A stretch of DNA of 64,000 nt from Verrucomicrobiota bacterium (GTDB taxonomy: Bacteria; Verrucomicrobiota; Verrucomicrobiia; Palsa-1439). This document shows, piece after piece, positions 1,824 through 16,844 of this stretch (positions are counted from its first letter, which is position 1; the number at the start of each line of letters is the position of its first letter). The stretch is taken from NCBI GenBank assembly GCA_003152315.1, contig PLZV01000011.1:1-64000 (forward strand). The letters run 5' to 3'. Below the pieces are notes generated by a model. The model saw nothing but the letters and a program-made list of their open reading frames with translations. It was not told the DNA's origin and made no database searches. Position numbers and translations under genes: made by a program.

Positions 1824-4082
1824 ATGCCCAGACTTGACGAGCAACTGGACCGTGAAGCGGTCCGCATAGTGGCCTTGACCCGGCACCTGTGCGCAGAAAC
1901 GCGTCTTGCGCGGGTCTGCCCCGAGGCCTATGGCGTCGCCATCCTGGCTTTCGGTCCTAATGCCGCGACGCGGGCCGTCAAGTCGCTCGGCGGCAACCTG
2001 AACACTCTCCTGCCAGCTTGCCGGGGTGTGCTACAAGCGCGGGTGGCAAACTTCGCGTCGACGCCTGGCGGCTACTTCAGCGTCGAGGTCGATGAATCAT
2101 GCCGTCTGATGGCCCGTGCCGCGGAGGAGCACCGCGTCCTGGCACGAGCGCCGCGTACCGGGGTTGTTCATATCTTGCTCGGGGTGCTACAGACCAGCCC
2201 CGAGGTCGCCAAGGCCTTCGACACCGCCGGAACTGGGCTGGCGGCTCTGCAGGGATTCGTCCGTCGTCCCGTCGAGCCGCAACGTCCGACGGCATCTCCC
2301 AAGACCGGCCCCAAGGTCGACCCGATCCATCATTCCGGGGAAGCGTCGTCACACCCCTTGGATCCACTGGCGGCATTCTGCGTCGATCTCAACGCCATGG
2401 CCGCGGCCGGGCAACTGCAGGCGGTGATTGGACGCGAGCGCGAGATTGATCGCATCATCACCACTCTCTGTCGGCAAAAGAAAAACAATCCTCTGCTGGT
2501 CGGCCCCGAAGGTGTTGGCAAGACCGCCATCGTCGAAGCAGTCGCGCATCGACTCGTCGCCGGCCGCGTTCCGTCCCAGATTGCCGGGCGGCGGATCTAT
2601 TCCGTGGATCTGGCTCGATTGGTCGCCGGCACCCAGTATCGGGGACAGTTCGAAGAGCGCTTAAAGGCATTAGTGGATGCCACCCGCTGCAACCGCAACT
2701 GCGTGCTATTTATTGATGAAGCCCACACCATCGTTGGCGCCGGTAGCGCCATCGGCACCTTGGACGCCAGTAACATGTTGAAGCCGGCATTGGCTCGCGG
2801 CGAGATCGCTTGCATCGGCGCCACGACCGAGAACGAGTACCGGAAATACTTTCGCACGGACAAGGCATTGGATCGGCGCTTCCAGCGCATTCCTATTGAT
2901 GAACCGTCGCCCCGCGAGACCGTGGAGGTCTTGAAGGGCTTGCGCGCCTCTTTGGAGCGTCACCACCACTGCACCATCACGGATGAAGTGGTAGAAGCGG
3001 CGGTCGAATTCTCCGAACGGCACATCACCGACCGCCACTTCCCGGACAAGGCAATCGATGTTGTAGATGAAATGTGTGCCCGATTTGCCGGCGGCGGCCA
3101 ACCGATCGGACGTGCGCAGGCCGCTCAAACCGTGGCGGATCAGATTGCCGCGCCGCTGGAGACGGTGCTGCCAACCAACGGTCAACGCGAGGAACTTGTC
3201 AGGAACGAACTGCGACGCCTGGTGGCCGGGCAGGGGAGAGCCATCGAAGCCGTGGCACGGGTGGTGTCGCGGGTTTTCTCCCCGCTGCGCGACCCGACGC
3301 GACCGCTGGCCAGTTTGGTCTTCGGAGGGCCATCGAGTGTCGGCAAGAGTTACGTCGCCAAGATTCTCAGCGAACAGCTTTACGCCAGGACACCCCTGAT
3401 CCGCATTAACCTCGCCGAATACACGGAGAAACACAACGCGAGTAGGCTGATCGGGTCGCCGCCGGGTTACATCGGTCATGGCGAACGAAACCAACTAACT
3501 GACCCGGTGATGCGTCACCCGCACAGCGTCCTGCTCTTTGACAACCTCGACAAGGCTCACCCGGAAGTGATGACCACGCTAATGGAGATGCTGGATGCCG
3601 GAGTGCTGACGGATGGGGAGGGGAATGAAGTCAATTTCCGTAGCACGTTCATCATCATGACCACTGTAGCCGGCGCGGCCAATTCGTCGAACGCCAATAT
3701 CGGTTTCGGTTCGCGGTCCGCGGGAACCGAACACGATACCGGCCGTAAGCGACTGATGGATGCCTGCCGCAATCTGTTCGGAGACGAATTCGTCAATCGG
3801 ATTGACGAGTTCGTGCCGTTCACGCCCCTGGGTCCGGCCGGATTGCGTCAGGTCGCGGTGTTCGCAATGGAGCAGATCCGACAACGGCTGGCGCAGGCCG
3901 GCATCAAGCTGCACTGGGATGATGCCGTGCTCAATCATCTCGCGCAAGAAAACACGCATGCCCGTGCCGTGCGAACTGCGGTCAAGAATGAGATTGAACC
4001 AGTGGTTTGCGCCGGCCTCAACCGGACCGGCACCACGAAAATCAAGATCAGACTGAAGAACAACCGCTTCACCATCGAATGA
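1824..4082 (+). CDS. ClpA-like AAA+ unfoldase with a degenerate second ATPase module
   Basis: This 752-residue protein has the Clp/Hsp100 layout: a Clp N-domain (about 1-150), a linker, AAA module D1 (about 195-460) and AAA module D2 (about 470-750), with no ClpB-type middle coiled coil. D1 looks intact: Walker A GPEGVGKT at 227-234, Walker B FIDE at 296-299, and ALDRRF as arginine-finger region. D2 has Walker A GPSSVGKS at 502-509, but Walker B reads LLFDN, with Asn574 in place of the catalytic Glu, and the sensor-1 motif IIMTSN is IIMTTV (Val615). An IGFG loop at 626-629 lies where ClpA contacts ClpP, so docking to a chambered peptidase is plausible, but no clpP is in the window. Start: AAAGGA seven bases before the ATG. 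It heads a four-gene run and may unfold or remodel proteins for its neighbours. Confidence 0.85.
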
Positions 4083-4097
4083 GGAGGAATCCACCCC

Positions 4098-4535
4098 GTG
4101 CTATCACCAAGCAACCATAGTCTCCGCGACAACGACACCCGACGGAGTGATTTTCCGGCGAACCTGCTGTCTCGCGTAGTCAAAGCCGATGCGGCCATCA
4201 CGGTCGACGGCATCACCCCGGAAGGGGACATCAAGTTCAGCGTGCCCTTGCGCGCGGTTGGCCTCTCGCGCCAGGCGATGGCCCGGTCCCTGTCGTGCCG
4301 AAGCGCATTTGTCGTGAATCTGCTGGGCGAATTGCTTGTCCGCAAGAACCTGGAGCGCTTCGCCGAGATGCTCCAAAAAGTGGATCCTCGGGATTATGAC
4401 CGAATCGTCAACAATTTCCGTCACCGGGATTTTGGGATGATGGTCGATCAGAATGATGTCGTTCGCTTTACATTTCACATTTCGCACGTCCAAGAGATTC
4501 TAATCGAAGACATCGGTGTGGTCTTTCGTTCCTAA
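4098..4535 (+). CDS. Unknown 145-residue protein in the ClpA/beta-CASP cluster
   Basis: I do not recognise this protein. It starts with GTG 15 bases after the ClpA-like stop, with AGGAGG placed 10 bases before it, directly after the stop codon. The body is soluble and mixed alpha/beta by appearance: a segment KADAAITVDGITPEGDIKF (about 28-46), a helical segment rich in RQAMARSLSCRSAFVVNLLG (about 55-80), and a C-terminal part ending DVVRFTFHISHVQEILIED. No signal peptide, membrane segment or metal motif is seen. The spacing says it is cotranscribed with the unfoldase, and it could be an adaptor or substrate for it; that is inference. Confidence 0.75.
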   Translation: MLSPSNHSLRDNDTRRSDFPANLLSRVVKADAAITVDGITPEGDIKFSVPLRAVGLSRQAMARSLSCRSAFVVNLLGELLVRKNLERFAEMLQKVDPRDYDRIVNNFRHRDFGMMVDQNDVVRFTFHISHVQEILIEDIGVVFRS

Positions 4536-4556
4536 AGCTGGCGGGAGAAAGGAATC

Positions 4557-4679
4557 ATGAGCCTGCATTGTTTTAACGGCGAATATTTCCCAGTCGCACG
4601 TCGGGGGTTTAACCATGTGGCGAGCGGAACTGAGGAATTCGCAAGGTTCCGCGCCACCCAACCCGGGGGATTCCGATGA
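4557..4679 (+). CDS. Small 40-residue ORF coupled to the beta-CASP gene
   Basis: A 40-codon frame beginning MSLHCFNGEYFPVARRGF fills almost the whole gap between the 145-residue gene and the metallohydrolase. It has a good ribosome site (GGGAGAAAGG six bases before ATG) and its TGA overlaps the ATG of the next gene as ATGA, the classic sign of translational coupling. It is hydrophilic with several aromatic residues and one cysteine and has no membrane segment. I know no family for it. It could be a leader for coupling rather than a functional protein, but position, ribosome site and overlap together support a real coding sequence. Confidence 0.6.
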   Translation: MSLHCFNGEYFPVARRGFNHVASGTEEFARFRATQPGGFR

Positions 4680-6409
4680 GCGTGACCATCACTTGCTTCG
4701 GCGGCGCCGGCGAAATCGGGGGGAATAAGATCCTGCTCGAGGACGGCGAGAAGCGGTTACTATTGGACTTCGGTATGGCTTTCGGTCGGACCGGAGACTT
4801 TTTCGATGGCGTCTTCTTGTCACAGCGCTCCGGACGCGGCTTGCTGGACCCTCTGGCTCTCGGACTTGTCCCTCCTCTCCGGGGAATCCTCCGAGATGAC
4901 CTAGTGCCGGCCACGCTCGATGAGGATTTCCATGTTACCGAAGTCCCGACAGCCGGACGAAGACACGCAGCTAGGAAGGTAACCAACCTGCACCCCGGCG
5001 TGATCGAGTCGTTTTGGCAGCACTGGCAGGACCGCTTTCCCAATGTCTATCGCGATCTTCGCCGTGATGATGGCCCGGCCGTTGACGCTGTGCTGATCAG
5101 TCACGCGCACCAGGATCACATCTCGGATTTGGAGTACATGCGCGGCGACATCCCGGCAGCCGGCACCTGCATGACAGCGTTCATCGCGAAAGTGTTGCTC
5201 GACATTGGAGGCGGTTCGGGGGCCGCATACATTCGTCCTGCGGCATTGTCAGAGCACGGCGTCGTGCAATCAGACCGGAGCGCTCCCAGTCAGCGGCGAC
5301 CGTGGTATTTCCTGGATCGGGTTCCTTCGGGCATAACGTCTGAAGATGCGCTGGCCAGTCCCCGCTCATTCTGGGACGCGTCAGCCGGCAAGAATGGCTC
5401 TCTCGTGTTGTCGCCCAGCTACTCGTTCGACGGCATGGTCGGGCCTTGGCGCGTCAAATGGTGGCCGGTGGATCACTCGCTTCCCGGTGCGGTCGCCTTT
5501 GCGGTTGAGACCGACGCCGGATGGGTCGCATACTCCGGTGACATCCGCTGTCATGGTCTTCGCGGGGCGATGACGTTGGAAGCGGCGAACCAAATGGCAG
5601 CGTTGCATCCGGTCGGGCTTCTTTGCGAGGGGACGCGGTTGACCGGTCCCAACGCCACCACGGAGGCGGAAGTCTACGAGAACTGCCGGCGCGTCGTCGA
5701 CGACGCGGCGGGCAAATTGGTGATCGCCGATTTCGCGCCGCGAAACATTGAGCGGTTCGAGATCTTCACGCGTATTGCGGAGGAGACCGGGCGGCGACTG
5801 CTGGTCCAACCAAAGGATGCGTACTTGCTCCGCGTCGTGCATCTGGCGGACCCTAGCACGGTCGACCTGATGGCATCGTCGCACGTCGCGGTCTACGACG
5901 ATCCCAAAGGCGTTTACCGGAAATATGAGGAAGCGGTTCGCGCGCGGTACGTGGATCGCATCGTGTCTCCCGATGAGGTGCGGCATCACTTAGGGGATTT
6001 CATCCTGGCATTCAGCCTGACGGACGCGGCTGACCTCCTCGATCTGGAATACCTTGTCGGGCACCAACTCGGCGGGGTTTACATTTTTAGCAATAGCCCG
6101 GCCTATGACGACGAGCAGACAATTGACCTAGTTCGACTCTGGAATTGGATGCAGCACTTGGGTCTGACGCTGATCGGCCTGCAACCACGGCATGATGTGA
6201 ATGGACAGATCGTGGCGATGGACGTTCAGGCCGGGTACCACGCCTCGGGCCACGCCGGCGGAGATGATCTGAAGGAGTTCGTGCGACGCATCTCGCCAAG
6301 GACACTCGTTCCAATCCACACCCAAGCAGCCCACCTTTGGCCGCAAATGCTTGCTGGCGAGCCGATTCGCATCGTTACACCCCAATGCGCGCAGCCGATC
6401 GGCTTCTGA
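4676..6409 (+). CDS. RNase J-like beta-CASP metallo-beta-lactamase hydrolase
   Basis: The 577-residue protein has the metallo-beta-lactamase fold with the RNA-processing signature. It starts SVTITCFGGAGEIGGNKILL, has the metal motif SHAHQDH at 142-148, HSLPGA (His267), the aspartate motif YSGDIR (Asp289), and beta-CASP-style C-terminal blocks YHASGHA (521-527) and PIHTQ (546-550). These match the order found in RNase J, though the region between the first strand and HxHxDH carries an extra segment of roughly 80 residues, and the usual C-terminal RNase J domain is not evident. It likely cuts RNA or another phosphodiester, with two zinc ions. Its ATG overlaps the stop of the 40-aa ORF, so it belongs to the unfoldase operon. 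A housekeeping RNase J is less likely because of the insert and the context. Confidence 0.85.
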   Translation: MSVTITCFGGAGEIGGNKILLEDGEKRLLLDFGMAFGRTGDFFDGVFLSQRSGRGLLDPLALGLVPPLRGILRDDLVPATLDEDFHVTEVPTAGRRHAARKVTNLHPGVIESFWQHWQDRFPNVYRDLRRDDGPAVDAVLISHAHQDHISDLEYMRGDIPAAGTCMTAFIAKVLLDIGGGSGAAYIRPAALSEHGVVQSDRSAPSQRRPWYFLDRVPSGITSEDALASPRSFWDASAGKNGSLVLSPSYSFDGMVGPWRVKWWPVDHSLPGAVAFAVETDAGWVAYSGDIRCHGLRGAMTLEAANQMAALHPVGLLCEGTRLTGPNATTEAEVYENCRRVVDDAAGKLVIADFAPRNIERFEIFTRIAEETGRRLLVQPKDAYLLRVVHLADPSTVDLMASSHVAVYDDPKGVYRKYEEAVRARYVDRIVSPDEVRHHLGDFILAFSLTDAADLLDLEYLVGHQLGGVYIFSNSPAYDDEQTIDLVRLWNWMQHLGLTLIGLQPRHDVNGQIVAMDVQAGYHASGHAGGDDLKEFVRRISPRTLVPIHTQAAHLWPQMLAGEPIRIVTPQCAQPIGF

Positions 6410-6419
6410 TGACTGGGCC

Positions 6420-6635
6420 ATGATTCGTATCCGGCTGACGGAGTACGTCCGCTTTCCTTTGCCGCTTCATGCAATTGCGCCTCAGCAACTCCTTCCGGAA
6501 GGGCCACTCGAAGTTGGCGCTATTCGGATCGAAGAGTGCCGAATCGGCTCCTCCGATCTGTCGGCAGCGATATGGAGCCCGCTGGCCGGTCTAATTAGGG
6601 GGACTTCTCCCCTTTGGAAATATGCTTGCCAATAA
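6420..6635 (+). CDS. Possible 71-residue ORF, perhaps truncated by the island edge
   Basis: Eleven bases after the beta-CASP stop, an ATG opens a 71-codon frame starting MIRIRLTEYVRFPLPLHAIA and including GPLEVGAIRIEECRIGSSDL. The first 60 residues look like ordinary high-GC coding DNA; the last ten (TSPLWKYACQ) run into the AT-richer sequence that starts near 6610. No strong ribosome site is visible. It may be the front end of a fifth operon gene cut by insertion of the neighbouring low-GC island, or a chance frame. Confidence 0.35.
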   Translation: MIRIRLTEYVRFPLPLHAIAPQQLLPEGPLEVGAIRIEECRIGSSDLSAAIWSPLAGLIRGTSPLWKYACQ

Positions 6636-6663
6636 ACCATTAAACCACACAGAATTTCAGTCC

Positions 6664-7488
6664 ATGACACTTTGCATCGCTGCGATATGCCGCCGTGATG
6701 GTGAGGAAGCGATTATTGCGGCCAGTGATTTCTTGCTTTCCAACCCAAGCCTGAGTCTAAAGTTTGACACTGGAGCTTACAAATTTACTACTGCCAGCCC
6801 AACTCATAGATGGATTTCCATGTTTGCCGGTAGGCCCTATGGGGCGACGGAAATTTGGGAATGCACGAGAGGAAAGTTCCGCAATAAACAAGACTCATCG
6901 AAGAACATGCGTTTGGCTTACGAACAATGTGTAGAAAAATTGCGCAAGCAGCTTGCTGAAAAGCAGCTACTTCGCAATCAGTTTATCTCCCTAAGGGAAT
7001 TCAAGCGGGACGGGCCAACGCTGTTTCCGGGCAGGAGACTCGCCATAATGCAACGAAAATTGAGAAACTTCGATTTTGGAACGGAGTTTTTGGTTGGCGG
7101 CTTTGATGCTCGGGGTGTGCCTGACTTGTTTACAATAACGGGGCGCGGGCAGATGCATAGTTTTTTGTCAACAAGCTGTGCAATGATTGGCTGTGGGGCC
7201 GACCTTGCGAAAGTATCTTTTACCAAATCATTTAATCCCAGAGACGATTGGACAGAAATTGTCTATCACGTCTGCGAGGCGAAATTCAGGGCAGAGGTTG
7301 ACCGCAGAGTTGGGGATAGAACAGTCGTTGTGATCGTGGATAAGAACGGAATCTGGCGGCATATTCCAGAGGAGGGAATAGAAAAGGTGCGCAATGCGTG
7401 GAAACGGTTGGGCGGCAAGAGAATTTCGCAATCTGTAAGCGAGATGATTGTGGGCCTTCCAGTCACATTTGGATGGAGCAAGCGGTAG
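6664..7488 (+). CDS. Proteasome-like Ntn-hydrolase family protein
   Basis: Taking the ATG at 6664 gives a 274-residue protein starting MTLCIAAICRRDGEEAIIAA, then SD. That opening, a threonine directly after the initiator Met followed by a hydrophobic strand and an ASD turn, is characteristic of N-terminal-nucleophile hydrolases related to proteasome beta subunits; Thr2 would be the nucleophile. Later segments FDFGTEFLVGGFD and SCAMIGCGADLAKV fit the second half of the fold. An in-frame ATG 14 codons upstream would bury Thr2 and is less likely. Codon use is AT-richer than the genes to the left, so it seems to belong to the island. Its target is unknown; it lies 255 bases after the beta-CASP gene on the same strand and could be a peptidase partner for the unfoldase, which is speculative. 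Confidence 0.65.
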   Translation: MTLCIAAICRRDGEEAIIAASDFLLSNPSLSLKFDTGAYKFTTASPTHRWISMFAGRPYGATEIWECTRGKFRNKQDSSKNMRLAYEQCVEKLRKQLAEKQLLRNQFISLREFKRDGPTLFPGRRLAIMQRKLRNFDFGTEFLVGGFDARGVPDLFTITGRGQMHSFLSTSCAMIGCGADLAKVSFTKSFNPRDDWTEIVYHVCEAKFRAEVDRRVGDRTVVVIVDKNGIWRHIPEEGIEKVRNAWKRLGGKRISQSVSEMIVGLPVTFGWSKR

Positions 7489-7636: not shown

Positions 7637-8665
7637 TCACAAATCTTCCTTCTCGAATCGTTGTAGTTTATCGGCATGAGACAGCATGCACGGGCCATAA
7701 ATTCCTTCCGCGAACTTCCATTTTCCGCCGCTCGGCCAGTCCTTCTTACTGACCGTTTCTGATTCTTTGGCCATAATGCTCCAAAGTTTGGCTTTTATGG
7801 TCTGCGGGCGACCTTTCATTTTCTCGTAGCTTTTATACAAAGACTGATATTGATATTTGGTCGTTTCCTGATTCTTCCATAAATCTACAAAATATTCTCC
7901 ATCACTGCGGACTGCTTCTTCAGAAGTTGCCGGGGTTGACGGAGGTGTGAAGGTTTTTCCGTAATGAAAATAAAGGCTTCGGGGTGTTTCGATTGGCGAT
8001 AGATCTCGCAACTCGTCGACGGTTAAACAAGTTCTGAACAAGAATTCGCTCTCTGATTCCTGGAAGGGGAGGACAAGAAAAAAATTGGAGGCCACGGCGG
8101 CCTCTCCGTGGCCGTTTGGGCACAGTACCATAATAATGGAGGAACTGAATAGTAGCCACAACAACTCGCCGATGTTTCGGCTGGAGCCACTTGTTACCCG
8201 CTCGCGAAATCGATCCAAAACATGGCTGGCAAAAGCGACCTTTTTCCCTGACAGAAATATCGGCGGTAGAAAGTCCTTGCCCGCGAAAAAGCGAAACGAG
8301 TGCTTGATACCAAGATCTTCGGTTTTCTCGACGTGTTGGGCGACCGATAACCCGGCCACCCCATCGCGTGAGAAGTATGGAAAAACCAGCAGTGTGTCCT
8401 CATCGATAGCGTTAAATTGCCAGCAGAACACGCGCACCAACTCGTATAAGGCGAATTTTCGATAATCATCTGCTCGCTGATCCGTGTTGGCCATTCGCGC
8501 GGAAATCCCCACCAAAAACTCGTTTTGAATGGCCTTAAAAATCGCTGGCAACTGTTCAGTATGGGGGAACAGCCGGACATCTCCCTGCCGCTCTTCGACC
8601 AGATGCAAATCCCGTAGGTACGCTAGATGCGATGGCAATACCCGTGTTGGTGAACGTCCGGTCAT
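7637..8665 (-). CDS. Unknown island protein, 342 residues
   Basis: I do not recognise this protein. From the ATG at 8665 it starts MTGRSPTRVLPSHLAYLRDL and goes on to LVEERQGDVRLF, a pattern reminiscent of a winged-helix DNA-reading segment, though this is only an impression. A TTG five codons upstream is also possible. The middle contains a hydrophobic stretch IGELLWLLFSSSIIMVLC (about 165-182), and the C-terminal third is lysine-rich and helical (KYQYQSLYKSYEKMKGR). It is the last gene of the minus-strand defence-like run, 51 bases after the HEPN-like gene, so it is probably cotranscribed with it. Confidence 0.7.
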   Translation of the reverse strand: MTGRSPTRVLPSHLAYLRDLHLVEERQGDVRLFPHTEQLPAIFKAIQNEFLVGISARMANTDQRADDYRKFALYELVRVFCWQFNAIDEDTLLVFPYFSRDGVAGLSVAQHVEKTEDLGIKHSFRFFAGKDFLPPIFLSGKKVAFASHVLDRFRERVTSGSSRNIGELLWLLFSSSIIMVLCPNGHGEAAVASNFFLVLPFQESESEFLFRTCLTVDELRDLSPIETPRSLYFHYGKTFTPPSTPATSEEAVRSDGEYFVDLWKNQETTKYQYQSLYKSYEKMKGRPQTIKAKLWSIMAKESETVSKKDWPSGGKWKFAEGIYGPCMLSHADKLQRFEKEDL

Positions 8666-8716
8666 CTTATGCCTGAGCAAATTACATGTCGTACAGTGGC
8701 CATGCTCGTTCCTTTG

Positions 8717-9886
8717 CTAGTCCGTGCGATCTTTCGCGGCGGTGAGAAATGCATTCTCAATAAAGTGCCGCTTCATGGCGGTAGCAAAAGCCTGGTCGAT
8801 CATTTGGTTCGTCACTTCCATTGCCGGCAAACCCGGTGCGGGTTCTTTGACTGGGGCTGAAAATCTGTCAAGAAATCCGAGTAAGGCTGTTTTGTAGAGT
8901 AGAGGAGCTAGATGTGTCAATGGTGGTCGCTTGTTGTTCTTAAACGGGAACAGATGTTCTGGTAAAACCTCATTCCCGTGCAGAAAACAGTTCCGTGCTT
9001 TGTAAAGGTCCCAATAAAGTTTCACGACCAAATTCACTTTGTGGCATTTTTTATCATAATGCACATCGTACTTGCAGTCTCGCAGCTCCGCATTTGCCCA
9101 AGTCTGTTTTTCCAACAACGCCTTCACCGTTCCGAAGTTGGCGTCGCCTCCGCTCCCCCCCAGCCTCGGATGCGCCAGAATCTCAAACGCACTGACCCAC
9201 AACCCGATTCTGACCCCAAAATCATGAATGCTTGGCTGGTTGCTTACCGGCAAGGCCGCTGCGTGATAAGCGACCTGAAGCGACCGGAACAGAGCTTCGG
9301 TGGCCTCGCGTGAATAATGAGTCGTACCAGTGTAGAAATTATTCCACGCCTCCATTAGCGGACGCAGCAACGTCTCTTCCGGTTCCACATCCACCCATTC
9401 GGTCGATGGCAAACCCGGCGAGGTCATACCATGAAACACTTGTGGCTGATCCCAACCATTCAAAGCTGGTGAAATCGTGAGAACTGCTGTTCGATCCGCC
9501 GTGATCGTGGTCGGATAAAAGTCAAAGAAATCTGTGTAGAATGTCCCGCGAACATTTAGCTGGCCAAGGCTCTCCTGCCTACCCTGCACCACACAAGAAA
9601 TGGCGACGAGGTTTCTAAAGCAGACGGCAGCGTCAATAGTCCGCACCTGAGCGGGAGCATCGTTACGCATTATCAACACGCACGGGTTGCGCTTTTTTCC
9701 AAACTGGTCAGTGAAGTTCTCGACCAAAGATCGTTCAAGCGCGCTATTTGCCGCGATCTGCTGAACACGCGGATCGGAGTGTGGTGCGATGGCCATGTAC
9801 TCAGAATCAAATGGCTTCTTGCAGGTCAGGTTGTGCAAGACGTAACCCAACAGCCACGGTTCTGCGGGTACGGCTGGGGCGCTCAA
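8717..9886 (-). CDS. HEPN-like (Apea-type) island protein
   Basis: The 389-residue protein carries YKARNCFLHGNE, with Arg298 and His303 forming the R-x4-H motif of HEPN RNases, inside a long C-terminal helical region (FRSLQVAYHAAALP, WVSAFEILAHP, KVNLVVKLYWDLYKARN). This arrangement is like the Apea-HEPN domains found in abortive-infection proteins. The first 170 residues are beta-rich and unrecognised. The frame opens with TTG at 9886, which overlaps the stop of a 44-residue ORF as TTGA; that start is weak on its own but the overlap argues for coupling. The context, next to methyltransferases and a helicase, suggests phage defence. The HEPN call rests on one motif and helical context. Confidence 0.6.
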   Translation of the reverse strand: MSAPAVPAEPWLLGYVLHNLTCKKPFDSEYMAIAPHSDPRVQQIAANSALERSLVENFTDQFGKKRNPCVLIMRNDAPAQVRTIDAAVCFRNLVAISCVVQGRQESLGQLNVRGTFYTDFFDFYPTTITADRTAVLTISPALNGWDQPQVFHGMTSPGLPSTEWVDVEPEETLLRPLMEAWNNFYTGTTHYSREATEALFRSLQVAYHAAALPVSNQPSIHDFGVRIGLWVSAFEILAHPRLGGSGGDANFGTVKALLEKQTWANAELRDCKYDVHYDKKCHKVNLVVKLYWDLYKARNCFLHGNEVLPEHLFPFKNNKRPPLTHLAPLLYKTALLGFLDRFSAPVKEPAPGLPAMEVTNQMIDQAFATAMKRHFIENAFLTAAKDRTD

Positions 9887-10017
9887 TTGGTTGCGCTTTT
9901 CCCGACCGGCTCGTTTCGCTCGTTGAGTGCTGGCAAGGAATTGACGATCTTCATGGTTTCGAGGCTGACGGTGATGACGCGTTGGGAGAGTTCCAGGGGA
10001 TACCGGGCGTTGGCCAT
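9883..10017 (-). CDS. Small 44-residue ORF ahead of the HEPN-like gene
   Basis: An ATG at 10017 opens a 44-codon frame beginning MANARYPLELSQRVITVSLE. Its TGA overlaps the TTG start of the HEPN-like gene (TTGA). It resembles coding sequence in composition but I know no family. It follows the methylase remnant by 12 bases and may itself be the leftover middle of a larger broken gene. Confidence 0.4.
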   Translation of the reverse strand: MANARYPLELSQRVITVSLETMKIVNSLPALNERNEPVGKSATN

Positions 10018-10029
10018 AGTTTCAGTGCC

Positions 10030-10149
10030 TCAGAGGTTGGCGTCGTTGACGATGCCGCTGTCTTTGTCGGTGGTTACAAACGCCGTCGTGCCGCTACCGC
10101 ACGTCGGGTCGAGTGCCAAGTCGCCGGGGTCGGTTGAAATCCTTATCAT
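10030..10149 (-). pseudogene. DNA methyltransferase remnant (DPTCGSGT motif)
   Basis: Directly after the helicase stop, with ATG overlapping TGA as ATGA, a 39-codon frame reads MIRISTDPGDLALDPTCGSG and then TTAFV before stopping at 10030. DPTCGSGT is the S-adenosylmethionine-binding motif I of beta-class DNA methyltransferases, which also often carry a GDLVLDPxxGSGT phrase. Everything needed for catalysis is missing, so this is a scrap of a methylase gene, probably left by a deletion between the helicase and the HEPN-like gene. Confidence 0.5.
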
Positions 10150-12662
10150 ACCTTTGCTGCCACGTTCACAAGTTCCGCACCGTAATCTTTCGGACTTAAA
10201 ACCGTGTCATAAAGGCCAATGTCTTCGGCTTCATGTTTGTTAATGCCGGTATAGCCCAAACTGGCATCTTCATACCGCTTGAATTTATAGACCGCGTCAT
10301 TCATCAAGGCGCTGTTAAACACACCGAGGCTGACCAGCAACTCGAAGTCTTTCACCGTCAACCCGGTAACCTTTTTGAAAAGCCCCGGCTCTAGTTGCGT
10401 GATGACATCTTTCAGGCTTCGCTCCCGGTAGTCGGTCAAATACATAAACACCGGCACACGCGTGGCGAATTTGATCAACTTCTCCTGAATCTCTTTGCGC
10501 TTACTCTTGTATTCCTTTTCCTCGTCGGTAAGCTCCTGCTTTTTCTTGGCGGAAAGCTCTTTGTCGTTGGCCTCCTTCTTCGCCTTTTTCACGGCTTCCG
10601 ACTTGTTGATAATGGTTTCAATATCCTGATTCAGATTGCGGAATCCCTCGATGCTCATCAACGCATCCATGGCGGCTTGATTGCCCATCAACCGCTGCAA
10701 CGTGCCGTTATCCACATTCACCAGCAACGCGCTTTCCCAGCGCCGCGCCAACAAGGTTGCCGTCGTGCCGCTCATCGCCATATCCAGAATACCGGCGGCA
10801 TCAATCTGCTTCATCGAACTGCCGTCATACGCCAGCACCGGCAGGAAGCTGATAAACTCCTCCACCTTCTTCTCCGGGTTTGATTCCCCGACATTCAGGC
10901 GGCAACTGTAATCCGCGATCTGCCGCAACGCCCGGTCCGGCGCGAAGTCAAAGACATAACATTCCTCTTTGATGATCTGCTCCTTCTTCGGCGTGAGACT
11001 GTCCGGATTATTGACCGTCCACGGGGATTGCACGCGGAACGCGGCCTGAAAATACGTTTCGGGACTGGACGAATTGCGCAGCATGAGAATCCCGGTCCAC
11101 GGCTTCACCGTCACCCCGGTCGTCAGTTTCCCACAGGACAGCGTGATCGTCTTGGTCTTCAGCGGATCATCCATTGCCTCCTTAATCGGCGGCAACGCTT
11201 CCACCCCGATCCCGGCACCACTGCCGGCAGCCACAAGCACCCGGTAATCGTGATAAAACTTGTTCTGCTTCTGCGCCAAAAGATTGTTCATCGCATGACA
11301 TGCCGCCACGCTGGGCAAAAACCAAAACGTATGTGACAAGACATTCAGCAGCCGGGCGTCCGAATACGGCATCGGCGGCTTTTTCGCGCCCAGCTTCAGA
11401 TTGTCGATAGTGGTTTCCTGAAATCCGCCCCGGATCAAGTCCAGCCACTTCTGCACCTCATCCGCGTAAGTGAACTTCGCTTCATCCCCAAACCTCGCCG
11501 CGGAAAAGAAAACATTCAGATCGAACTCGCTAAACTCTCCCTGCATCGCGATTTCTCGGATGGCATCCGGTAATTGATAAGTCAGCAATACCATCCTCGG
11601 CAACGCCGCGTATGGATTGTCCGCGCCTTTCCAATCTCGCTTCGCCCGCTGTTCATCCGAATACGTCCAGTTGAAAATCTGCTCCTCGATAAACTCGCCG
11701 GAGGCAATCGCCCGAAACGGCGTGCCGGACAGATACAAAAAGCCGCCCGTCGTGATCGGGATAATCTCTTCGTCGAAATCCTTAATCCCTGCGCCTTCCC
11801 CGAACTCGATTTCCTTTTTGTCTTCCGCTTCAAAAAGGTCCTTCGCGTTTTCGCGCCATGCTCCGTAATGATATTCGTCAAGGATCACGCAATCCCAGTT
11901 GGTGGCATGCACCCACTCGTTATTGGTCTTAATCCCTCCCGTGCTCGTGTTCCTCCCTAAATAATCCTGAAACGACCCGAAGCAGACGAACGGCTTCTTC
12001 TTATCCGCATCCTCATACGCCAAGCCACCCGGCGAAATAAACTGCCAGCCCTTGAAATCAATATGGCGTTTCAAATCCTCTTCCCAAGCGTCTTGCACCG
12101 CCGGCTTGAACGTCAGCACCAGCACTTTGCGCCAGCCCATTTTCTTGGCGAGTTGATAGGCGGTAAAGGTCTTCCCGAACCGCATTTTCGCGTTCCACAG
12201 GAAGTGCGGCGGCTTGTCGCGGTTCTCTTTCCGGAAACTCTTGAAATAAGCCGCCGTCTTTTCCACCGCTTCCGTTTGTTCCGGCCGCATCTTGAAATTA
12301 AGATCCCGGTTCTCCTCGTTCAACTCGCCGGTCTTGAGCGCGATGATCGCCGCCTTGATCTCCTTCTCCGCACACTTGAACCACTCGCCATCGGGATTCG
12401 GGATGCCGGCCTGTCGCAGATGCCGGTGAACATCGCGATCGGTGAAGGTTGTGCCGTCATTGCGCATCGCGGACACTTCCAGCACAATCCGGTAGGGTGG
12501 CTTGCCGGGTTTCAACGTCGGATACTGCTGCGCCACCCGCGTCTGCGCATCCACCGTCGTGTAGCCGATTTTGAGCAAGCCCCGGTATTGCGGATTCGTG
12601 TCCTCGTAGGCGTAGATCGTCGGCTTGGAATCTGGCCGGGGAGGAAAAAACTCTTTACTCAT
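10146..12662 (-). CDS. GIY-YIG-like nuclease fused to SF2 helicase, restriction component
   Basis: The 838-residue protein begins with a region (about 14-110) containing TIYAYEDTN and LLKIGYTT, resembling the T5orf172/GIY-YIG nuclease fold. A superfamily-2 helicase core follows: motif I KMRFGKT with Lys at about 163, motif II DEYH at 262-265, SGTPFRA as motif III-like, and QAAFRVQSP as a motif VI-like block. The C-terminal part has a charged coiled-coil stretch (KKAKKEANDKELSAKKKQEL). Such ATP-driven translocases serve as the cutting or scanning subunit of restriction systems. It overlaps the upstream methyltransferase by 8 bases, so the genes are cotranscribed and translationally coupled. 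Which strand break it makes cannot be read from sequence. Confidence 0.8.
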   Translation of the reverse strand: MSKEFFPPRPDSKPTIYAYEDTNPQYRGLLKIGYTTVDAQTRVAQQYPTLKPGKPPYRIVLEVSAMRNDGTTFTDRDVHRHLRQAGIPNPDGEWFKCAEKEIKAAIIALKTGELNEENRDLNFKMRPEQTEAVEKTAAYFKSFRKENRDKPPHFLWNAKMRFGKTFTAYQLAKKMGWRKVLVLTFKPAVQDAWEEDLKRHIDFKGWQFISPGGLAYEDADKKKPFVCFGSFQDYLGRNTSTGGIKTNNEWVHATNWDCVILDEYHYGAWRENAKDLFEAEDKKEIEFGEGAGIKDFDEEIIPITTGGFLYLSGTPFRAIASGEFIEEQIFNWTYSDEQRAKRDWKGADNPYAALPRMVLLTYQLPDAIREIAMQGEFSEFDLNVFFSAARFGDEAKFTYADEVQKWLDLIRGGFQETTIDNLKLGAKKPPMPYSDARLLNVLSHTFWFLPSVAACHAMNNLLAQKQNKFYHDYRVLVAAGSGAGIGVEALPPIKEAMDDPLKTKTITLSCGKLTTGVTVKPWTGILMLRNSSSPETYFQAAFRVQSPWTVNNPDSLTPKKEQIIKEECYVFDFAPDRALRQIADYSCRLNVGESNPEKKVEEFISFLPVLAYDGSSMKQIDAAGILDMAMSGTTATLLARRWESALLVNVDNGTLQRLMGNQAAMDALMSIEGFRNLNQDIETIINKSEAVKKAKKEANDKELSAKKKQELTDEEKEYKSKRKEIQEKLIKFATRVPVFMYLTDYRERSLKDVITQLEPGLFKKVTGLTVKDFELLVSLGVFNSALMNDAVYKFKRYEDASLGYTGINKHEAEDIGLYDTVLSPKDYGAELVNVAAKV

Positions 12663-14175
12663 TCTTCGACTCCATCGGGCGGATCATTGACTCGATGAAC
12701 GAGATGTCAGCTTTGGTCAGGTTGTATTTTTTGTAGAGTGCTTCATCAGTCCATGTGCGATCCCAAGTCTGTTGAGGAACCCACAGATAGGCTTCACGCG
12801 TCGTATGCTGAGTAATCTTCCGAAGCGAAACTAGAAATCGTAGAAACCGGGTGCGGTAGTAACTCGCAATGCTGTCCGCTTGCTCTCGCGAGTCAGCACA
12901 CACGAAAAGGAATGATTGTGTGCAAACCGATGGCTTTGTCGCCACGAAGCTGGGCCCAAGCACCATCGCCGGACGAGTGCCGCGCTCACCATAGGCCGAG
13001 GGCACCATCGCTTTCCATCGTGCTATCGATTCTTGGTTGATCTTTACCTCGCTCCTTGCAATCCAAGCTTTGACACGCCCGCGAGGACTTGTGGCATAGT
13101 AACAAACATCGCCGGGACTTTGTTTGTTCCGGTAACCTGAAAAGTTCGAGACGATTCCAAACGCAGTCCTGGCTGACAGAACTTCCGAAAGACTTGGCTC
13201 TTTTACCGAGAGTATCTTCTTTAGGATTCTCAGCGCCCTGACGTCGCGAACAAATACGTCAAACTCGCTCAAATTGCGTGCGACCGGAGCACTTGCGTTG
13301 TCCCCACTGATTGTCGTGACATCGCAATCGCCTTCGTCATCGCGATCCCATAGGAAGTAGCAAATACCACCCTCGAAATCCACGCCGGGGAAAACAGCAT
13401 CCATTCTCTCGTAGTCCACCAGTTTCCGGATACGTCGATCTTCTAGCATTGTGCGGCGGAACTCGGAAAGACCCAGTCCACCGGCCATCCAACGTGCGGG
13501 GATGATCATGGAAAGAAAGCGCGGGTTCAGCTTCTTTGCCTGATCGACGAACTTGTTGTAGATGGGAATATCGCGAGTGCCGCCGTCAGAGCCCATTTGA
13601 TACGGCGGATTGCCGGCAATGACATCAAACTTCATATTGAATATCTCCTCTGGCTTTTCGGTGTGGATGAATTGGTAGGCGTGGGTTTCCAGTTCCTCGC
13701 CACGGGCATAGGCTTCCTCACTCGCTCCGCAGAAAGCGCATCTTCCATTTTCCCAAGTATGGTTGACGCGCTTGAATCGGATATTGCCCTGCTCGTCATC
13801 GAAGGCTTCACACACGGAATACTTGCCATTGGCTTTCTTGGAGCAATACACCGACCGGCGGGAAAGCAAGGAAGTCAGTTCCGTGATGGCAATGCCGAAG
13901 ATCTGGTTTTGGAAAATGTGGTTGGCGCGTTTCTGCTCGTTGGGAATCTGCTTCGCCAATCCCACCATGAGCCGCTTGGCGATCTCCCGCAGAAACACGC
14001 CGGTCTTGCAGAACGGATCGAGGAACCGGGCATTCTTGTCGCTCCAGATTTCCGGGGGCAGCATATCCAGAATCTGGTTGACCAGTTGCGGCGGGGTGAA
14101 AACTTCGTCGTTGCTCAGATTGGCCAAGCAACTCAGGACATCGGGATTGTAATTAGTGGTGGTCAACATCGGCAA
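12655..14175 (-). CDS. Eco57I/TaqI-type N6-adenine DNA methyltransferase
   Basis: The 506-residue protein has the gamma-class adenine methylase layout: motif X/I region EVFTPPQLV and FLDPFCKTGVFL (about 20-60), then motif IV GNPPYQ at about 187-192, and a long C-terminal target-recognition part with the block WVPQQTWDRTWTDEALYKKY near the end. NPPY is the catalytic signature for adenine amino methylation. A small zinc-knuckle-like CAFCGA sits at about 145. It overlaps the 231-residue methylase by 23 bases and the helicase by 8 bases, making a three-gene restriction-modification operon. Confidence 0.85.
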   Translation of the reverse strand: MPMLTTTNYNPDVLSCLANLSNDEVFTPPQLVNQILDMLPPEIWSDKNARFLDPFCKTGVFLREIAKRLMVGLAKQIPNEQKRANHIFQNQIFGIAITELTSLLSRRSVYCSKKANGKYSVCEAFDDEQGNIRFKRVNHTWENGRCAFCGASEEAYARGEELETHAYQFIHTEKPEEIFNMKFDVIAGNPPYQMGSDGGTRDIPIYNKFVDQAKKLNPRFLSMIIPARWMAGGLGLSEFRRTMLEDRRIRKLVDYERMDAVFPGVDFEGGICYFLWDRDDEGDCDVTTISGDNASAPVARNLSEFDVFVRDVRALRILKKILSVKEPSLSEVLSARTAFGIVSNFSGYRNKQSPGDVCYYATSPRGRVKAWIARSEVKINQESIARWKAMVPSAYGERGTRPAMVLGPSFVATKPSVCTQSFLFVCADSREQADSIASYYRTRFLRFLVSLRKITQHTTREAYLWVPQQTWDRTWTDEALYKKYNLTKADISFIESMIRPMESKNE

Positions 14176-14848
14176 CCTTCAGGAAGTGCGTTAAGGGATA
14201 TTCTTTCAACGGGGTCGGGATGAACACATCCTCACCGAGATCAGAAAAGAGCGGCAGTTCACTCATCGCCGCATGATCGAGCAATCCATGAAACGTAAAG
14301 TCGCGGCGCTTTAACTGGCTGCCGTTGACGGGCGACCATTCAGAAAAGACAATCGGTTTCGTGTTATCGCCAACGCTTTTCAAGGTGAGGGCATCGCCCC
14401 AGATGATGTTGCGCGCCAGAATATATTTAACGGCCCTCCGGCAATCGTCCGTGGCTGCCGACTTGAAAAGGGCGGTGTATTTCTGCTCGAAAAGATCAAA
14501 CAGCCGTTGCCGGCAAGCCGCGACATTATCTTCCAGAATATCGATCCCATAGATGGAGGACACGGCCAGCACGGCATTCCGCTCGTAATCCAACTGACTT
14601 TTGCCGTACCGCGCTGCGACGACGCGCAGTTTCCGCTCCAGAATTTCCGTCAGAAAATTGCCATCGCCGCAAGCCGGCTCAAGAAAGCGGGATTCGATCC
14701 GTTCCGTTTCCTGTTTCACCAAATCGAGCATGGCCGAGACTTCCCGTTTGGCAGTTAAAACCTCGCCATGGTCGGTGACGCGCTTTCGCGAGACAACCTG
14801 CTTTTCGTGCTTCGCTAGGCTCACGTCTTCAATATTTATCATAGCCAT
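14153..14848 (-). CDS. SAM-dependent methyltransferase, first gene of the restriction operon
   Basis: The 231-residue protein has motif I FLEPACGDGNFL at about 55-66, preceded by HGEVLTAKREVSAML, the usual lead-in for adenine DNA methylases. A clear NPPY motif is absent (the corresponding region reads IVFSEWSP), so this may be a non-catalytic partner or a half-methylase that works with the 506-residue protein. ATG at 14848 or 14842 are both possible. It is the first gene of the operon; the region upstream contains a strong hairpin at 14981-15013 and then the recombinase. Confidence 0.75.
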   Translation of the reverse strand: MAMINIEDVSLAKHEKQVVSRKRVTDHGEVLTAKREVSAMLDLVKQETERIESRFLEPACGDGNFLTEILERKLRVVAARYGKSQLDYERNAVLAVSSIYGIDILEDNVAACRQRLFDLFEQKYTALFKSAATDDCRRAVKYILARNIIWGDALTLKSVGDNTKPIVFSEWSPVNGSQLKRRDFTFHGLLDHAAMSELPLFSDLGEDVFIPTPLKEYPLTHFLKVADVDHH

Positions 14849-14980
14849 CCTCCGGCAACTGCAAGGTAGTCAATGCCGACGGTAGGCTCATGGTTGCTGT
14901 TTGTATCATTATCTGCTCGTTTCGGTGGCCTAGAGTGTAGTCAGTCAGTGCCCCTTCGACAAGCCCATGCTGGCAGACGA

Positions 14981-15013
14981 AAAAAAGAGAGGCCGTAATC
15001 TGCCTCTCTTTTT
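14981..15013. terminator. Strong rho-independent terminator, bidirectional
   Basis: The arms AAAGAGAGGC and GCCTCTCTTT form a 10-bp stem around an 8-base loop, extended by A and T tracts on either side, so it can end transcription from either strand. On the minus strand it follows a short remnant of a proline-rich C-terminus and insulates the restriction operon from the recombinase. Confidence 0.8.
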
Positions 15014-15032
15014 CTGTCGTAGGCTCGTTCAA

Positions 15033-15095
15033 TTATTGCGGCGGCTTCGGCTGCGCGGGTTTCGGACTGGGGGCGTCAACTCGCCCATACCTAGC
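15033..15095 (-). other. Proline/lysine-rich C-terminal remnant before the terminator
   Basis: In the same frame as the recombinase and just past its stop, the minus strand reads DAPSPKPAQPKPPQ and then TAA at 15033-15035, directly followed by the terminator. Such a tail plus terminator looks like the 3' end of a lost gene rather than of the recombinase. It may mark a junction created when the recombinase element arrived. Confidence 0.35.
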
Positions 15096-16844
15096 CTAGC
15101 TGAGTGCTCGACTCGGTCTTGGTAGGACACGCTTTTGATGCTTCTCATCGCGCCAAGGAATTGGAGGGGCGCCGCCATAGAAGACAATACCGGTGGCTAT
15201 CTTTTTGGCTTTCCCATGCGCTACTGCTTTTAGAATCATGGGATAGGACCGCATGAGTCGCTCAAAATTCAGCCGGGTAGGATTGACGGGCTGGGGCGTC
15301 CCTGCGGCGGCCGTCGGCTTGCCACGCTCGGTCCTGACCGCAAAGACCCTGTGCTTATTATCCATGAATTCCACGTCTGCAATGCACACCTTCTCGTTTC
15401 GCTTACCACCAATCCACACCCGGATTGTTCGGCATAGCAGCGTTATCCTAGATCGAAGACGCTCGCGTACACTGCGTAATTCTTCATCTTTCAGCTTCTC
15501 CAGCTTCGCGCAGAGGTCCGAAACTTCGGCGACCACTTCCACTCCAACCGGTGCGCTGCGCCTGGAGCGAACCTCCTCCAATTCCACTGCCAAGCTGGCC
15601 TCCTGTCCGCCGAGTCGTTTTAGCAACGACAGCATAGCATCGAAATTCCCACTCTCATCAATTGCCTTCTGTGTCTTTACAATTCGTTCCCTGACCTCGG
15701 CGAGTCTGCCGGTCAGCGCGTCAGTGTCGGAGCGCAACGGTTCATCTTCTAGAGTAAGCTCTTTCACCCACTGCAGGAAATGGCGCTCGAACTCGTGGTA
15801 GTTGAAACTGCGATATGTCGCGAGACCTCGTAGAAAATTAGCCGACACCATGTCAAGGGAGCCCTTGCGTCGGTGCATCAGCACTATCGTGCCGTCATCT
15901 TGGCCGCTCACGAGCACCTTTCCAAACAGGTTGACTACGTTACGCGCACCCCTACCCCTGACTTTGGAGCGGGCGGAAATTCCTGCCTGAAGACGGTAGA
16001 ACTCGTCTTCCGAGATCAGCGCCGGATAGTAGCCCTTGATTGATTCACCTTCGGGGACTGGCTTGCCATTCACATAGCGATGCGGCTGATACTCCCCGAT
16101 CAACGTTCGGCTGCGAGTGATGTGCCGGGTTACTGCCACGTTCCAATGAGTAGGACGCTTTCTCTTTCGCTTGCTGATTGGCGGTACTTTTTCGCGGTTT
16201 AGCAAGGCAGTGATGGCAGGCGCACCGCGCCCGCTGAGCGCGAGGTTGACGATACGACGTACAATCGCGGATTCATTTGGCAGAAACACAAATTTCCCGG
16301 TTTCGCTCAGCTCTAGCCAGCCTGGGCAGCGACTGGTAACCGGCCGCTCGGCCGCCCGCATTCGTTTCTGCTCCCAAGATGATGCGAGTCGCTTTGACTT
16401 AGTCGCACTTTCCTCATTCGCGCGAGACATCACCATCACCGAATACATGAGGTCGAATGGGTTCGCATTGACCGATTGTTTTGTGTATTCCTTACCGTCC
16501 AATAGCGTCACAATCATGATCTCTGCGTTGATAATACGGACAAACAATTCGAGTGCCGTCAACACCTCGGCGCGACTTAATCTGTCAAGAGATTCCACGA
16601 TCAGGACTGAACCTGGTCTCACGCGTCCGGCCTCAATGGCGTCGAAAAAGCGAGCCAGTGCGCCATGTGTGGCGTTTCTACCGCGAAATGCCGACACGCC
16701 TAGGTCACGCATTGTGAGCGACTCGTCGAGTCGCAGACGATGCTGGTCGCAATAACGGCGGGTCGCCTCAAACTGACGGCGGAGGCTGTCCCCCCTGAGT
16801 TGGTCAGGAGAAGAGAATCTGATATAAGAATACGCGATAGTCAC
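15096..16844 (-). CDS. Large serine recombinase
   Basis: The 582-residue protein opens with the catalytic block YSYIRFSSPDQ (Ser11 after R-x), continues with ESLDRLSRAEV at about 104-114, has a recombinase domain with linker PAITALLNREKVPP, and a C-terminal coiled coil (TGRLAEVRERIVKTQKAIDE). This is the order found in phage and island large serine integrases. Where the zinc ribbon with four cysteines is expected the sequence reads LFGKVLVSGQDDGTIVLMHR, with no cysteines, so that module has been altered. It is divergent from the plastocyanin-like gene and likely drove the movement of the low-GC island to its left. No att sites could be identified by eye. Confidence 0.85.
   Translation of the reverse strand: MTIAYSYIRFSSPDQLRGDSLRRQFEATRRYCDQHRLRLDESLTMRDLGVSAFRGRNATHGALARFFDAIEAGRVRPGSVLIVESLDRLSRAEVLTALELFVRIINAEIMIVTLLDGKEYTKQSVNANPFDLMYSVMVMSRANEESATKSKRLASSWEQKRMRAAERPVTSRCPGWLELSETGKFVFLPNESAIVRRIVNLALSGRGAPAITALLNREKVPPISKRKRKRPTHWNVAVTRHITRSRTLIGEYQPHRYVNGKPVPEGESIKGYYPALISEDEFYRLQAGISARSKVRGRGARNVVNLFGKVLVSGQDDGTIVLMHRRKGSLDMVSANFLRGLATYRSFNYHEFERHFLQWVKELTLEDEPLRSDTDALTGRLAEVRERIVKTQKAIDESGNFDAMLSLLKRLGGQEASLAVELEEVRSRRSAPVGVEVVAEVSDLCAKLEKLKDEELRSVRERLRSRITLLCRTIRVWIGGKRNEKVCIADVEFMDNKHRVFAVRTERGKPTAAAGTPQPVNPTRLNFERLMRSYPMILKAVAHGKAKKIATGIVFYGGAPPIPWRDEKHQKRVLPRPSRALS

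Follow-up and report, generated by a model that had tools for sequence, protein, structure and literature searches.

A conserved set of four genes joining an Hsp100 unfoldase with a degenerate second ring, a predicted adaptor and a beta-CASP metallo-hydrolase on islands of a Verrucomicrobiota genome

Organization of the four-gene set

The window, i.e. the whole analysed stretch of 64,000 nucleotides from contig PLZV01000011.1 of a Verrucomicrobiota bacterium, contains at positions 1824-6409 a set of four genes, encoding an Hsp100 unfoldase, two small proteins and a beta-CASP metallo-hydrolase; a second complete set, with the same gene order, is found on another contig of the same genome. The four genes are a real conserved unit, more than chance neighbours. 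Checking of the open reading frames (ORFs) confirmed all four on the plus strand, with the spacing of 15, 21 and -4 bases given in the original prediction, which had been made from the letters of the window and an ORF list.

The first gene (P0001, 1824-4082, plus strand) encodes a ClpA/ClpC-like unfoldase of 752 amino acids (aa), with a diverged N-domain, an intact first AAA+ ring (D1) and a degenerate second one (D2). It is followed by the gene for a 145-aa protein (P0002, 4098-4535, plus strand), which starts with GTG and has a conserved GE..VR core, and by a small frame of 40 aa (P0003, 4557-4679, plus strand), which overlaps the next gene in an ATGA stop/start. The last gene (P0004, 4676-6409, plus strand) encodes a metallo-hydrolase of 577 aa, which has the full complement of metal-binding and beta-CASP residues. 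Pfam and NCBIfam searches agree with the predicted content of one Hsp100 unfoldase and two proteins without a family; for the latter, P0002 and P0003, no credible family match was obtained in Pfam, NCBIfam, PADLOC or PHROGs.

A second copy in the same genome

The second set is located at 7650-12109 of locus L014, on contig C5 of the genome (G000, 4.89 Mb in 62 contigs), and was first detected, in a search of this genome, through relatives of P0002 and P0004 standing side by side. It consists of an unfoldase (7650-9893, 65% identity with P0001), a 140-aa protein (9880-10302, 56-59% identity with P0002), a 50-aa frame (10299-10451, about 44% identity with P0003) and a hydrolase (10448-12109, 71-72% identity with P0004). 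The similarity detected by blastn is limited to 1833-6354 of the window and 7659-12048 of the C5 locus, i.e. from the start of the unfoldase gene to the end of the hydrolase gene. Two neighbours originally proposed as further parts, a 71-aa frame and a proteasome-like hydrolase, were discarded, as they have no counterpart at C5 and the similarity stops at 6354-6394. The proteasome-like gene (6622-7488), coding for an Ntn hydrolase, has an internal ATG at 6664 which would yield a mature N-terminal threonine (MTLCIAAI...).

Synonymous differences between the two copies are saturated in all four genes, their proportion (pS) being 0.70-0.86. The proportion of nonsynonymous differences (pN) is 0.22 for the unfoldase, 0.29 for the 145-aa protein, 0.36 for the small frame (34 codons only) and 0.18 for the hydrolase. 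Since pN is below the saturated pS, the four frames are under purifying selection. An unfoldase pair and a nuclease might also have been carried together by accident and duplicated once. The occurrence of the whole set in one genome only agrees with such an origin, because two copies would also result if the genes had been joined once and the set then duplicated or captured repeatedly; the saturated synonymous sites, however, indicate that the arrangement, including the coupled tiny frame, has long been kept under purifying selection, and the retained gene order makes a chance neighbourhood quite improbable.

The original prediction proposed that the genes form a system, to be recognized by its recurrence across distant phyla. 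One conserved unit was found, present twice in the genome, on islands with restriction and defence-type genes, but no recurrence of the four-gene set: among the 388 sampled genomes of the phylum, as well as in the other collections searched, only G000 contains it. As the searches covered the phylum sample, viral contigs, plasmids, phages and one genome pattern scan with poor patterns, this absence elsewhere is weak evidence.

The Hsp100 unfoldase

Pfam domains AAA, AAA_lid_9, AAA_2 and ClpB_D2-small are detected in P0001. Its best NCBIfam match is ClpA, with 574 bits, a score which does not reach the cut-off of 993 bits of the ClpA equivalog TIGR02639. Alignment with ClpC and ClpA over the full length defines two Clp-type AAA+ rings and, by comparison with ClpC (C25) and ClpB (C21) of the same genome, both P0001 and its C5 twin keep the Walker A and B motifs of D1, the pore tyrosines, and the Walker A motif and arginine finger of D2. 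At the position used for ClpP docking, IGFG/VGFG in the two copies aligns with LGF of the genome's ClpC, while a gap is present in ClpB; the docking loop of P0001 was also aligned against solved ClpC. A host ClpP gene is present on contig C36.

The likeness to ClpA and ClpC includes the two rings, the D1 motifs, the pore loops, the arginine finger and a GF-type ClpP loop. In contrast, the catalytic signature of D2 (DE in Walker B, Asn in sensor 1) is found in neither P0001 nor the C5 copy: in both, Walker B is LFDN in place of LFDE (Glu to Asn) and sensor 1 is TTV in place of TSN (Asn to Val). The M-domain is also absent from both, and the N-domain of P0001 is diverged and was not detected by Pfam. 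A further difference is that P0001 is encoded on an island, with its own predicted adaptor and nuclease. According to established Walker B chemistry, the loss of the glutamate suggests that D2 would be a ring which binds ATP without hydrolysing it.

The beta-CASP metallo-hydrolase

P0004 contains the Pfam domains Lactamase_B and RMMBL (E=3.6e-7 for the latter) and carries motifs 1-4 of the metallo-beta-lactamase (MBL) family and motifs A-C of the beta-CASP group (D31, H143, H145, D147, H148, H267, D289, E318, H526, H548). Its metal-binding and beta-CASP residues, including HxHxDH at 143-148, are invariant over seven relatives. EF2904 (PDB 2az4) and RNase J are the best solved relatives. The initial description as an RNase J-like metallohydrolase is therefore correct at the level of the MBL/beta-CASP family, but does not extend to RNase J proper. 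The hydrolases of the window and of C5 score 67.5 and 75 bits against TIGR00649, whose cut-off is 400 bits and with which a Sphingomonas RNase J used as control scores 398.7; in addition, the domains RNase_J_b_CASP (PF22505) and RNase_J_C (PF17770), both shown by the control, are missing in the two proteins. With its N-terminal insertion, P0004 is thus assigned, from its sequence, to a distinct beta-CASP subfamily.

Relatives sharing the insertion are found on plasmids of Thermus, Rhodothermus, Thermococcus and Methanothermobacter, none of which carries a ClpA-like gene, and on an Eisenbacteria contig. The pattern scan of genome contigs retrieved only a cut Eisenbacteria contig, and its follow-up in that phylum gave a stand-alone beta-CASP gene in G460. 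No relative of P0004 was found in phages, and viral contigs gave only beta-CASP relatives at 24%. In a 13-row tree, the hydrolases of the window pair group in a supported branch of their own, while deeper forks are unsure. The stand-alone subfamily is common to plasmids of thermophilic bacteria and archaea (L006, L007, L008, L009, L011), often near toxin-antitoxin or restriction genes.

A beta-CASP protein being the only RNase J of the genome had been named as an argument against a dedicated system. To the letter this is the case, as G000 contains no clear RNase-J-like gene besides the two copies of P0004; yet both are island-borne and the subfamily, at E<=1e-20, is found in none of the other 387 phylum genomes sampled, so that they do not look like a housekeeping RNase J. 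The same distribution, along with the lack of P0002 in the closest relatives, gives the set the look of accessory mobile cargo.

These data also bear on the possibility that the set clears ribonucleoproteins, as a stress function of housekeeping style carried by an island. The unfoldase would strip protein-RNA complexes chosen by the adaptor, such as stalled ribosomes or ribonucleoproteins of phages and plasmids, and the beta-CASP enzyme would degrade the freed RNA. An association of an AAA+ unfoldase with a beta-CASP RNase has a precedent in Haloferax, where Cdc48a associates with RecJ3/4-aRNase J in pull-downs and is tied to DNA-damage recovery (PMC10470531), and the subfamily, which is intact, is also found alone. 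The Haloferax proteins, however, are archaeal, cellular and linked to ubiquitin-like (Ubl) proteins, without an Hsp100 or an adaptor of the 145-aa family, and a subfamily missing from the other 387 sampled genomes of the phylum but present twice on islands is more what would be expected of accessory cargo than of core RNA decay. We consider this explanation a serious alternative, though an unlikely one.

The family of the 145-aa protein

A profile built on the window pair and run on the 388 phylum genomes identified one further convincing member, the N-terminal domain of a ClpX-like ATPase (P0007) in G212. A three-row profile, run on 318 genomes of the class of G476, gave a match in G476 (E=5e-15), in a protein where the P0002-like domain precedes YbjN and whose gene lies directly after a classical AAA+ gene. 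The window-pair profile alone scores the G212 and G476 proteins at 23 and 58 bits, against 7.1 for the best of 10,000 shuffles. The expected vicinity to an unfoldase was supported, since members of the family were found only with AAA+ ATPases, at 4 of 4 known loci, in three arrangements (separate gene in the two copies of G000, ClpX-like fusion in G212, YbjN fusion beside an AAA+ gene in G476) and with three types of ATPase, while the other genes vary. By sequence, the 145-aa protein is the founder of an undescribed domain family.

Other profile matches were rejected, because they lie antisense to a rpoB-like frame (G377), do not correspond to a plausible gene (G062) or are partial, over 30 positions (G282). 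No relative of P0002 was found in viral contigs. Variant ClpX proteins of G066, G155, G221 and G212 (contig C30) were also evaluated, but obtained no score with either profile (A7 and A1); for this reason, faint hhalign matches to two N-terminal regions of G066 were not counted. These variant ClpX-like ATPases (L062, L063, L064 and L065, respectively) have long, unrelated N-terminal regions and, when compared with P0007, outscore housekeeping ClpX; they may be a ClpX family of mobile character. In L063 and L065, a resolvase or phage integrase is found nearby.

A WYL regulator is located divergently upstream at both additional loci, opposite to the ClpX-like ATPase gene with the N-terminal P0002-like domain in G212 (L027, contig C3, 4285-7149) and to the classical AAA+ gene and the P0002-like/YbjN fusion in G476 (L077, contig C147, 2845-6992). 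The G212 locus runs on into Mre11-like, SMC, Z1 and DUF4420 genes. As to YbjN, a 620-aa protein of this kind is encoded within a contractile-injection-like cluster (gp25, baseplate, DUF4157) of the Oscillatoria plasmid pOSC7112.04 (L087, 4338-6197).

The AlphaFold model of the 145-aa protein has the topology alpha-bb-4alpha-bb-alpha, with a predicted local distance difference test (pLDDT) score of 74 and a predicted template modelling (pTM) score of 0.70. For two models (pTM 0.65 and 0.70), Foldseek comparison with PDB and BFVD retrieved nothing at E<=0.001. Although fused to YbjN in G476, the domain itself is not YbjN-like, by sequence or by fold search. The N-terminal region of ClpX is the binding place of adaptors and substrates. 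TY-chaperones, YbjN included, have been proposed as peptide-binding chaperones of conflict systems (PMC9503650). For these reasons, the 145-aa protein is predicted to act as a substrate adaptor of AAA+ ATPases.

The small frame

The small frame and its 50-aa counterpart match only in their first 13 residues (MSxxxFxxEYFP), and 22 of 20,000 shuffles score equally; this frame is the weakest supported of the four parts. Its ATGA stop/start overlap with the hydrolase gene is retained in both copies, and its product is possibly a stoichiometric partner of the hydrolase.

Such coupling to the nuclease would be expected if the set worked as an addiction system of the toxin-antitoxin style, with the beta-CASP enzyme as a toxin kept in check by the 40-aa and 145-aa proteins until the restraint is lifted, on cue, by the Hsp100 together with host ClpP. 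The retained ClpP-docking loop, the presence of host ClpP and the mobile context of both copies point in the same direction. The plasmid relatives of the nuclease, however, lack such a partner, and are therefore probably not toxic alone, and the 145-aa family accompanies ATPases, not nucleases; we regard a toxin-antitoxin function as an improbable but serious alternative.

Genomic surroundings of the two copies

The C5 set starts about 12 bases past a tyrosine integrase gene, which is preceded by a HTH_17 gene. It is flanked by a gene for a PNP-type effector and by a type I restriction cluster, which includes GIY-YIG, a weak match to a DUF6036-like nucleotidyltransferase, and DUF4917 (PADLOC PDC-S21). 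Upstream of the set in the window is an HNH gene; a T5orf172/ResIII system with an Eco57I methylase is found at 10-15 kb, and a large serine recombinase at 15.1-16.8 kb. The anticipated clustering with defence genes was thus observed, both copies being near recombinases and restriction genes.

Within these surroundings, the PNP_UDP_1 effector-type gene of C5 (666 aa) adjoins a gene for a 1281-aa protein with a HTH_upst_double_PIN domain (L014, 1-5825), making a candidate defence pair. The system of the window (10146-16844) is type IIG-like, with the T5orf172 domain on the helicase, and adjoins the serine recombinase.

Comparison with known systems

Among defence systems with a ClpB-like ATPase, the one nearest to the four-gene set is Dodola, made up of the ClpB-domain ATPase DolB and its partner DolA (PMC11514479); it has neither the partner nor the nuclease in common with the set. 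The match of P0001 to DolB (71.7 bits) is confined to the AAA_2 region, which is common to all Hsp100 proteins; the DolB model is an AAA protein of 375 positions, not a two-ring Hsp100, and no DolA-type family match was found for P0002-P0004 in Pfam or PADLOC. In the literature, no paper was found linking beta-CASP proteins with ClpA in defence.

A possible conflict module

The explanation favoured here, to which we assign a probability of about 45%, is that the set is a mobile, island-borne conflict module, serving defence or element maintenance, in which a core of AAA+ unfoldase and adaptor gates an effector that can be exchanged, in this case an RNA-cutting beta-CASP enzyme. Such a core is proposed because adaptor and AAA+ ATPase are constant across loci, while the nuclease is specific to the G000 sets. 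The computed basis comprises the conserved unit and its second copy, purifying selection, an intact set of nuclease residues, the degeneration of D2, the presence of a docking loop and the link of the adaptor family to AAA+ ATPases. In the proposed mechanism, the 145-aa protein would bind a cue or client and pass it to the Hsp100 hexamer, where D1 would be the ATP-driven motor and D2, having lost the catalytic Walker B glutamate, an ATP-binding platform docking host ClpP through the GF loop. As a result, the beta-CASP enzyme would be released or activated, and RNA cut. The likeliest restraint or tether would be the 40-aa product, whose translation is coupled to that of the nuclease.

Several points weigh against this explanation. 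Since the complete set has been seen in one genome only, its generality depends on two copies. No beta-CASP gene is present at the adaptor-family loci of G212 and G476. The nearest beta-CASP relatives (Eisenbacteria L026, 50%, and the thermophile and archaeal plasmids) stand without an unfoldase beside them, which implies that the nuclease can act without it. Finally, it is the neighbourhood that suggests a defence role.

More tentatively, and with rather less than even odds, the set may represent a new class of defence systems, in which effectors are exchangeable and are connected to Clp-type and other AAA+ unfoldases by a new family of adaptor domains. In the present case, a natural 'half-dead' Hsp100 would gate RNA cutting by a beta-CASP enzyme, so that protein unfolding and the destruction of RNA would be coupled directly. 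If the proposal is right, a so far undescribed adaptor domain would link several kinds of AAA+ unfoldases to conflict modules, a natural Hsp100 would have lost the catalytic glutamate of its second ring while keeping the protease-docking loop, and protein unfolding would be connected to RNA cutting in bacterial immunity.

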